The position numbers were made by a program, and so were the translations under genes. Below, in pieces: positions 7,210-8,156 of a DNA stretch of 8,156 bases. Below the pieces are notes generated by a model that ran no database searches, had not been told where the DNA came from, and worked only from the letters and a program-made list of their open reading frames with translations. The stretch lies in contig CAJVYT010000184.1 of NCBI GenBank assembly GCA_913009765.1, positions 1 to 8,156 of the forward strand, read 5' to 3'. Each line of letters begins with the position of its first letter. The first letter of the stretch is position 1. The DNA comes from an uncultured candidate division Zixibacteria bacterium (lineage in GTDB: Bacteria; Zixibacteria; MSB-5A5; GN15; FEB-12).

Positions 7210-7262
7210 TTCAAAACAGCAGCAGTTAATAATTACTGATTAAAGATTATCAAGGTGTGAAA

Positions 7263-7643
7263 ATGTATATAATATTACTTGTTGGCATTGGAGGGTTTCT
7301 GGGAGCCGTTTTTAGATATTTAATTAGCGGCTGGATTCAAGATGGGTTAGTCACATTTCCTCTTGGAACATTAGGAGTAAATTTTCTTGGGACTTTTTTA
7401 TTAAGTTTGATAATGTATCTTTCAGAATATAAAGGTTTATTTACCGAAGAGACAAGAATCTTTCTCACAATCGGTTTATTGGGGGCATTTACAACAATGT
7501 CGACTTTCAGCTATGAATCATTCAAACTGCTTGAACAAAAAGAAACTTTTTTATTAAGTCTTAACGTTATTGGAACAATAATACTGACATTTTTTGCGGT
7601 ATATTTAGGTAAAATTATTGCTGTGAATTTATGGAGGACATGA
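7263..7643 (+). CDS. crcB: Fluoride-specific ion channel (Fluc/CrcB)
   Basis: Fluc proteins are small dual-topology dimers that let fluoride leave the cytoplasm. From ATG 7263 the protein has 126 residues and four membrane segments. It shows the family blocks GGFLGAVFRY (10-19), FPLGTLGVNFLG (32-43, with pore Asn40) and GLLGAFTTMSTFSYE (71-85). In the last block the usual TTFSTF reads TTMSTF, so the first of the two pore phenylalanines is Met79 while Phe82 is kept. SD AAGG (7252-7255) is 7 bases from this ATG but overlaps a GTG at 7257 only one base on, so the ATG is chosen over the GTG. The DUF190 gene follows after one base. Length is normal for the family. Confidence 0.95.
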   Translation: MYIILLVGIGGFLGAVFRYLISGWIQDGLVTFPLGTLGVNFLGTFLLSLIMYLSEYKGLFTEETRIFLTIGLLGAFTTMSTFSYESFKLLEQKETFLLSLNVIGTIILTFFAVYLGKIIAVNLWRT

Positions 7644-7644
7644 T

Positions 7645-7998
7645 ATGAAAAAAGAATCAGAAGCTATTCTCTTGAGAATCTTTATTGGTGAATCAGATGA
7701 ATACGACGGAAAAAAACTCTATACTTACATAACTGAGATGTTGAAAAATGAGGGTGTTGCGGGGGCAACTGTTCTGAGGGGAATTACCGGATTTGGTAAA
7801 ACAAGCCATATTCATACAACATCTATTTTGAGATTATCAACAGATTTGCCGATTGTTATTGAAGTAACCGATACAAAAGAGAATATCGAAAGAATAAAAC
7901 CAAAACTGGATGAAGTAATCACAGAGGGACTTATCACCGAGGAAAAAGTTAGGATAATTTTTTATGATGGCAATGAGAAATCGTCTGATGAGCAGTAA
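7645..7998 (+). CDS. DUF190 (PII-like) protein, partner of CrcB
   Basis: This 117-residue cytosolic protein has the DUF190 pattern: an N-terminal LLRIFIGESD strand (9-18), a Tyr/Lys-rich helix, the GVAGATVLRGITGFGK segment (37-52) with its conserved glycines, an SHIHT motif (54-58) and a terminal beta-alpha-beta unit ending in RIIFY. The family has a ferredoxin-like fold related to the PII signal proteins and is very often encoded beside crcB, where a regulatory or auxiliary role is suspected but not, to my knowledge, proven. SD GGAGG (7633-7637), 7 bases from the ATG, lies inside the crcB end, and the one-base gap means co-translation with crcB. No terminator with a T tract is seen after it. 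Confidence 0.9.
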   Translation: MKKESEAILLRIFIGESDEYDGKKLYTYITEMLKNEGVAGATVLRGITGFGKTSHIHTTSILRLSTDLPIVIEVTDTKENIERIKPKLDEVITEGLITEEKVRIIFYDGNEKSSDEQ

Positions 7999-8063
7999 CT
8001 AAAACAACTTTTCCGCTGTAATGAGTACTGTAGTTACTATGTTATAAAAGTTCTAAAAAGAAA

Positions 8064-8152
8064 GAGGTTATCTCATTATATTAAAATAAAAACCTTTAAA
8101 CCCGTGTTCCACCGCTTTTGCGGAAGACACAATTTTAACAGGAGATAACCTC
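8064..8152 (+). promoter_or_regulatory. Nested-helix leader that buries the SD of the next gene
   Basis: GAGGTTATCTC (8064-8074) is the exact reverse complement of GAGATAACCTC (8142-8152), which contains most of the SD (GGAG, 8141-8144) and ends one base before the ATG. Inside it lie TTAAAAT 8081-8087 with 8132-8138, GTGTT 8104-8108 with GACAC 8126-8130, and CCGC 8112-8115 with GCGG 8120-8123 around a TTTT loop. All four helices nest. AACCT (8091-8095) can instead pair with AGGTT (8065-8069), which would open the outer helix. A translational switch or thermometer is inferred. The outer repeat could alternatively be a protein operator (GAG-N5-CTC twice). I recognise no known riboswitch class. 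Confidence 0.55.
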
Positions 8153-8156
8153 ATGA
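8153..8156 (+). CDS. Start of a further gene, cut by the window end
   Basis: An ATG at 8153-8155 follows the SD AGGAGA (8140-8145) with about 8 bases spacing from GGAG. Only the start codon and one further base are visible, so nothing can be said of the product. It matters because the structured element just upstream must act on it. Confidence 0.6.

Follow-up and report, generated by a model that had tools for sequence, protein, structure and literature searches.

The window, as we call the whole stretch of 8,156 nucleotides analyzed here, is a contig from Zixibacteria, as indicated by its ribosomal protein S1, which shares 91–95% identity over the matched parts with three Candidatus Zixiibacteriota genomes. 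Its genes encode, in order, a protein without a Pfam match, PspC, a LiaF-like protein, a solute-binding protein, cytidylate kinase, an acyltransferase, S1, CrcB (of the fluoride channel family) and DUF190. The crcB-DUF190 pair is followed by the left end of an insertion sequence and a structured leader (Table 1). Neither the pair nor the leader is present after rpsA in the three relatives compared: in L001 and L002 a lipoprotein gene and then ychF lie downstream, and in L073 one extra gene precedes the lipoprotein gene and ychF. The pair and the leader are therefore not common to these relatives at that site. DUF190 occurs in 5 of 54 family genomes, and no downstream gene is common to the loci examined. 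A search for a fluoride riboswitch gave no Rfam match at the gathering score anywhere in the window. At the other end of the contig, a remnant of an Illumina adapter is found at positions 87–152 behind a poly-T stretch; positions 87–110 we take to be the P7 end and 119–152 the read-2 adapter. Some or all of the sequence up to position 152 is thus an artefact of assembly.

Table 1. Features of the window around the insertion sequence end and its leader.
Feature	Position	Strand	Remarks and basis
crcB + DUF190 gene pair	7257–7998		directly before the IS110-type element
Left end of IS110-family insertion sequence	8032–8156	+	cut by contig end; boundary 8032 (8030 if GT is included)
TATGTT, candidate −10 of junction promoter	8038–8043	+	17-nt spacer from right-end TTGAC(A/T); placed through relatives' right ends
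Outer helix	8064–8074 with 8142–8152	+	11 pairs; predicted fold, covariation
Outer helix, 5′ arm	8064–8074	+	fold and covariation
Outer helix, 3′ arm	8142–8152	+	directly abuts the start codon; fold and covariation
Second helix	8094–8100 with 8134–8138 and 8140–8141	+	7 pairs; predicted fold
Inner hairpin (third helix)	8104–8108 with 8126–8130	+	5 pairs; conserved; predicted fold
Inner hairpin, 5′ strand	8104–8108	+	GTGTT here, GTGGT in most relatives
Inner hairpin, 3′ strand	8126–8130	+	GACAC here, GCCAC in most relatives
Innermost helix	8112–8115 with 8120–8123	+	4 pairs; predicted fold
Shine-Dalgarno AGGAG	8140–8144	+	8 nt upstream of ATG; sequence
Start codon and first base of gene, putative IS110 transposase	8153–8156	+	frames after related leaders

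The four helices with 27 nested pairs that the initial annotation of this DNA had proposed are borne out at 8064–8152. The RNA of 8050–8156 folds with −27.9 kcal/mol, which none of 200 dinucleotide shuffles equals (z = −5.08), and two small side hairpins are predicted beyond the nested pairs. An outer helix of 11 bp does lie next to the ATG, but without the single-base gap described earlier, as it ends at 8152 and the ATG occupies 8153–8155. Likewise, its cover of the Shine-Dalgarno (SD) sequence is partial: only the GAG at 8142–8144 belongs to it, while 8140–8141 pair with 8094–8095 instead. The predicted pairing of the SD averages 0.79 at 37 °C. A loop of 16 bases had been placed at 8088–8103; the unpaired stretch on the 5′ side is instead 8075–8093, with a small side hairpin inside, and it differs in length and letters among relatives. 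When 8041–8152 was shuffled 20,000 times with dinucleotides preserved, 10 shuffles gave a perfect stem of at least 11 bp ending no more than 4 nt from the start. Among 298 control genes, 19 have a near-flush stem of at least 11 pairs when one mismatch is permitted, and 11% have an SD accessibility as low as that of the window (0.21) or lower. The fold by itself is uncommon but not unique, and covariation carries the case.

A stable fold over a ribosome binding site (RBS) would also suit an RNA switch that refolds in response to a small molecule or to temperature, a reading that appears extremely unlikely here. The letters of the competing pairing suggested for such a switch exist (AGGTT at 8065–8069 and AACCT at 8091–8095), but forcing it costs 9.3 kcal/mol, its predicted probability is close to zero, and it is not conserved: in only one of the 22 other aligned rows can any 5 nt of the arm pair within the loop, and the 5 nt concerned are not the same. 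In the prediction, the outer helix stays at or above 0.987 as far as 60 °C, which argues against an RNA thermometer, and the absence of any Rfam family at the gathering score, together with the unconserved loop, argues against a riboswitch. On the other strand, a sub-threshold Rfam match to rli30 (30.6 bits against a gathering score of 41) was absent from stretches of the same short length in two relatives. Of the riboswitch, thermometer or autoregulatory leader initially envisaged, a conserved leader that buries the RBS stands, and regulation through it is presumed.

At the DNA level, the leader matched at most 27 bases in 54 genomes, and a covariance model built from one sequence gave a single weak match (E 0.75). 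Matches of 26 bases in phages (150 records) and one partial plasmid match of 40 bases were taken as chance. Viral contigs yielded no relative, and neither did 16 other genomes at E 1e-60, a cut-off at which absence carries no information. In 132 genomes of the phylum, a DNA search with positions 7990–8156 returned 15 rows at a threshold of E 0.01. Nine of the rows span about 8030–8052, and the best one covers 46 bases at 87% in G001. The end pattern AGTTACTATGTTATAAAAGT, with up to two mismatches, occurs at 16 places in 10 of the 132 genomes (13 with at most one mismatch), compared with 8 for a backward control. The whole leader is present at only five of these places, with the arm GAGGCTACC, a GTGGTC..GCCAC-type hairpin and a GAGG..CCT(C/A) arm before the start; elsewhere it is cut, altered or missing, or the sequence ends first. 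A covariance model, R2, found 33 rows in 17 of the 132 genomes at E 0.1. Those with E below 1e-9 number 22, from 10 genomes; nine of them had gone into the building of R2 and 13 had not, some of the latter being copies of one another; the remaining 11 rows, at E 5.8e-5 or weaker, were excluded as members. A further model, R3, contains no row from the window, but its alignment was made with R2, which contained one. R3 scores the window at 45.2 bits (E 7e-12 with the window alone searched), and on 42 loci chosen from more than 250 (800,014 bases) the window has E 6.9e-10, with runners-up at 19.3 and 18.7 bits. One more leader, that of L193, was obtained outside the phylum: among 395 genomes of a different one, nine have a transposase match.

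The helices of these leaders covary, as the check on homologous leaders called for by the initial annotation revealed. In a set of 11 leaders (10 distinct rows, arms and hairpin only), 89.3% of cells are paired compared with 85.3% after shuffling (0 of 500 shuffles as high), the covariation score is likewise reached by none of 500, and both sides have changed in 6 of 15 pairs (1 of 500). Further pair types are no more frequent than in shuffles (356 of 500), pair 5–29 is broken in 4 of 10 rows and pair 7–27 in 3 of 10. A model-made alignment of 23 rows, 19 of them distinct, gives 93.3% paired cells against 88.2% shuffled (0 of 500), 6 of 15 pairs changed on both sides (0 of 500), a score of 0.173 against 0.078 (0 of 500) and 13 further pair types against 9.7 (5 of 500). 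This alignment was fitted to the structure and is biased towards it, and its related rows are not independent; slid by −3, 65.8% of its cells still pair, with a score of 0.134. It also retains the weak row L196:635-702 and a row, L202, that is out of register in the hairpin. Matched changes in the outer arms can be seen by comparing GAGGTTATC/GATAACCTC in the window with GAGGCTACC/GGTAGCCTC in L172 and GAGGCTGCC/GGCAGCCTC in L170. The data support a leader that is conserved, covaries and buries the RBS of the following gene.

Relatives of this stretch share a single location: the left end of an IS110-family element, immediately upstream of the transposase gene. The conserved start of the element, AGTTACTATG, is found at 8032 in the window. 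L197 and L213 are identical from the equivalent base, the first of the element, until their contigs stop 140 nt later, and they differ before it; the listed ends in general have differing flanks. The suspicion that a mobile element was involved was therefore right as to location, but the two 11-mers are not its terminal repeats, since the element end starts 32 nt before the first arm. The copies L214, L220, L221, L222 and L224 stop 119–127 nt in, the window stops at 125, and other copies end elsewhere, at 76 to 244 nt. We infer that the contig ends there through a repeat longer than the assembler's word.

The window covers 4 nt of the gene after the leader, and the nature of this gene is judged from relatives. 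Among the frames after the 23 aligned leaders, the window and six others have at most 14 nt beyond the start. Of the 16 leaders with enough sequence, 12 read into the N terminus of a transposase (one with AGG for a start), while L199, L203, L215 (decayed-looking) and the weak row do not. In L157, for instance, the frame MRKMQ..GLEDSKRTWKLCVR starts at the start codon of the leader. A 123-residue fragment matched the NCBIfam IS110 model weakly (26.5 bits against a cut-off of 140) and no Pfam family, and a search with a related fragment yielded more copies. The complete relative in L170, of 353 residues, reaches 182.1 bits with NF033542, the NCBIfam IS110 model (cut-off 140), and exceeds the cut-offs of PF02371 and PF01548, placing a DEDD transposase behind the leader. 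In a database search, 2,419 relatives were found among 7,999 candidates scored. Since relatives are located at the IS110 left end, a model free of the window matches it and the helices covary, the gene at the end of the window is very probably an IS110 transposase and, very probably, not a host gene. An identity with IS200/IS605, which encode a Y1 transposase, was rejected: the best two Y1 loci (L123 and L124) have no such leader, and an IS110 frame was found. Y1-transposase matches occur in 47 of 54 genomes of the family of G003; most are weak and span 150–250 residues, presumably the size of REP-associated transposases.

In L113 (G001), positions 1501–1546 carry about the first 40 bases of the element between two convergent genes, without leader or transposase; this is a remnant or solo end of the element. 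Four copies in G008 (L221, L222, L223 and L224) follow the same flank, CTGAGCGCAGTCGA, near a CCTGAGCGGAGTCGAAGG repeat that L002 and L113 also contain. Repeated palindromes may thus be the target of this element, as they are for other IS110/IS1111 elements.

Burial of the RBS appears to extend beyond the window. The median SD accessibility is 0.19 in the leaders of 11 subfamily members, compared with 0.42 in the 298 controls (p = 4e-4). L177 is a clear exception, its SD being accessible in the model (0.59), and L172 is middling (0.40). A family-wide test was given 31 loci, of which 20 gave a frame and 19 a value; with L191, a non-IS110 frame, retained among the 19, it gave p = 3e-4 for accessibility and 3e-3 for stem length. 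With the ten non-plasmid loci, a subset chosen afterwards, the values were 4e-4 and 0.014 against 298 controls. In these tests starts were chosen partly for the presence of an SD, and base composition was unmatched to the controls, so that the suggestion that some more distant IS110 leaders also bury their RBS is suggestive only. In the distant IS110-type genes of L174, L175, L186, L190 and L234, upstream stems of unrelated letters bury the RBS near the start codon.

The leader is most likely the tnp 5′ UTR of an IS110-family element, which would mask the RBS and keep transposase levels low. The element would have inserted about 33 nt after the crcB-DUF190 stop in a Zixibacteria genome. On joining of the ends, TTGAC(A/T) from the right would come to stand 17 nt ahead of TATGTT from the left, giving a promoter from which transcription would start near 8050. 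The messenger from this junction promoter would contain the whole fold, as would read-through transcripts from outside, and because the outer helix reaches right up to the start codon and encloses the RBS, synthesis of the presumed transposase would be low. The fold and the covariation of its helices are observed, as is, in relatives, a position upstream of IS110 transposase genes; the identity of the window's own gene, the lowered translation and the promoter are deduced. Joining of the ends and formation of a promoter are reported for the IS110 family (PMC11208160, PMC11187229). In all 12 right-end rows examined, from 11 distinct places, TTGAC(A/T) lies 11 nt before the terminal AG/GG, the search pattern having allowed 11 to 21 nt; adding AGTTAC of the left end gives the spacer of 17 nt. 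A scan of the window by itself gave one promoter-like site, at 7931–7958, against 0.7 expected.

Alternatively, the helices could function at the DNA level, perhaps as a signal for recombination where the element ends, their overlap with the RBS being incidental. The stretch does lie at the end of a mobile element, and the letters of the inner hairpin are conserved, not just its pairing. However, the ends share their first dozen bases without helices near them, in the aligned rows the outer arm includes the SD and reaches to the side of the start codon, and distant IS110 elements with other letters again have stems that bury the RBS. A role as DNA is accordingly very unlikely.

The non-coding ends of IS110 elements offer another candidate function, as the leader itself could be the bridge (seek) RNA that guides the transposase, like the left-end RNA of IS621. 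Guide RNAs of the IS110 group lie mostly in the left end (PMC11208160), and seekRNAs measure 70–100 nt (PMC11187229); the leader is about as long and folds well. In the complete copy of G132, however, 113 nt on the left compare with 250 nt on the right (1,425 bp in total), the IS1111-type layout with a long non-coding region after tnp and a short one before it, seen here in a single complete element. In three elements that are more distant, the right end measures 193–250 nt. As to subterminal inverted repeats, which are usually 11–13 bp in the IS1111 type, only a short CTATG/CATAG pair was noted, by eye. The sequence CCACGAATAGCAG, with up to two mismatches, follows the gene at thirteen IS110-type places, further matches being scattered as by chance. 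A conserved, donor-like motif of the GAATAGCAG type in the right end agrees with the right terminus of the element, and the two change together: AATAGGAG/CATAGGAG in L192 and GATAGTAG/CATAGTAG in L194. This parallel change points to a donor guide and makes the right end the most likely source of the guide RNA, and the leader is therefore probably not a guide RNA. Its loop is variable as well, and no stretch that follows the flank was noticed in an unsystematic look. Overall, a leader serving as bridge RNA seems quite unlikely. Pairing between right-end RNA and leader was equally good in 104, 102, 18, 0 and 0 of 200 single-base shuffles for five elements; this outcome is mixed, and the right end of G433 was wrong (broken frame), so the test was left out of the argument.

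The closest counterpart of a tnp 5′ UTR that masks its RBS is ISPpu9 of Pseudomonas putida KT2440, which likewise encodes an IS110-group DEDD transposase and in which translation of tnp is reduced by a 5′ UTR fold that covers the RBS (PMC8450116). There the fold was shown by experiment to hold translation down, and a weakened fold raised reporter expression 26-fold (PMC8450116). A conserved 5′ UTR fold that includes the RBS, as in ISPpu9, is found here through fold and covariation. In contrast, the 5′ UTR of ISPpu9 is far longer, with its start codon at +245, and is opened by the antisense RNA Asr9 (PMC8450116), whereas the leader described here has about 100 nt, covaries within a lineage of its own and is not known to have an antisense RNA. 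ISPpu9 is the sole direct precedent that we recognized in the open-licence literature on translation control in IS110/IS1111 elements. What is new here is the matched base changes that support an RBS-masking leader in another lineage, the principle being already known from ISPpu9.

Transposase leaders of IS10, IS50 and IS200 also sequester the RBS, and in IS10 and IS50 the masking arm is present only in transcripts from outside. As in those systems, the RBS would be hidden here in transcripts that enter the element; unlike in IS10 and IS50, the predicted transcript of the element's own promoter also carries the masking arm, and the transposases are unrelated. Control by sRNA or Hfq is mentioned for the IS10, IS50 and IS200 transposases (PMC8450116). 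The IS621 bridge RNA and ISEc11 seekRNA systems share the transposase family and structured non-coding ends (PMC11208160, PMC11187229), but the likely guide RNA here would be in the right end, as in the IS1111 type, and not in the leader.

Recombinases of the IS110 family are guided by RNA, and there is interest in them as tools for work on genomes. A covarying leader in another lineage, together with stems in distant members, suggests that the device may be common in the family, which can be tested. As an unlikely extension, the transposase might bind its own messenger through an inner hairpin that mimics a GUGG..CCAC stem of the guide RNA, clamping the fold and shutting off its own synthesis once protein is sufficient. 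Among the 11 right ends listed for 12 loci, 9 have such a GTGG..CCAC stem just before the GAATAG motif, compared with 331 of 20,000 random 90-mers, and the exact stem occurs in 6 of 11 leaders. However, L174 and L186 have the hairpin in the right end and lack it in the leader, the stem of the window is GTGT/ACAC, and stems of 4 bp can coincide. In L193, right end and leader both carry GTGGT/ACCAC.
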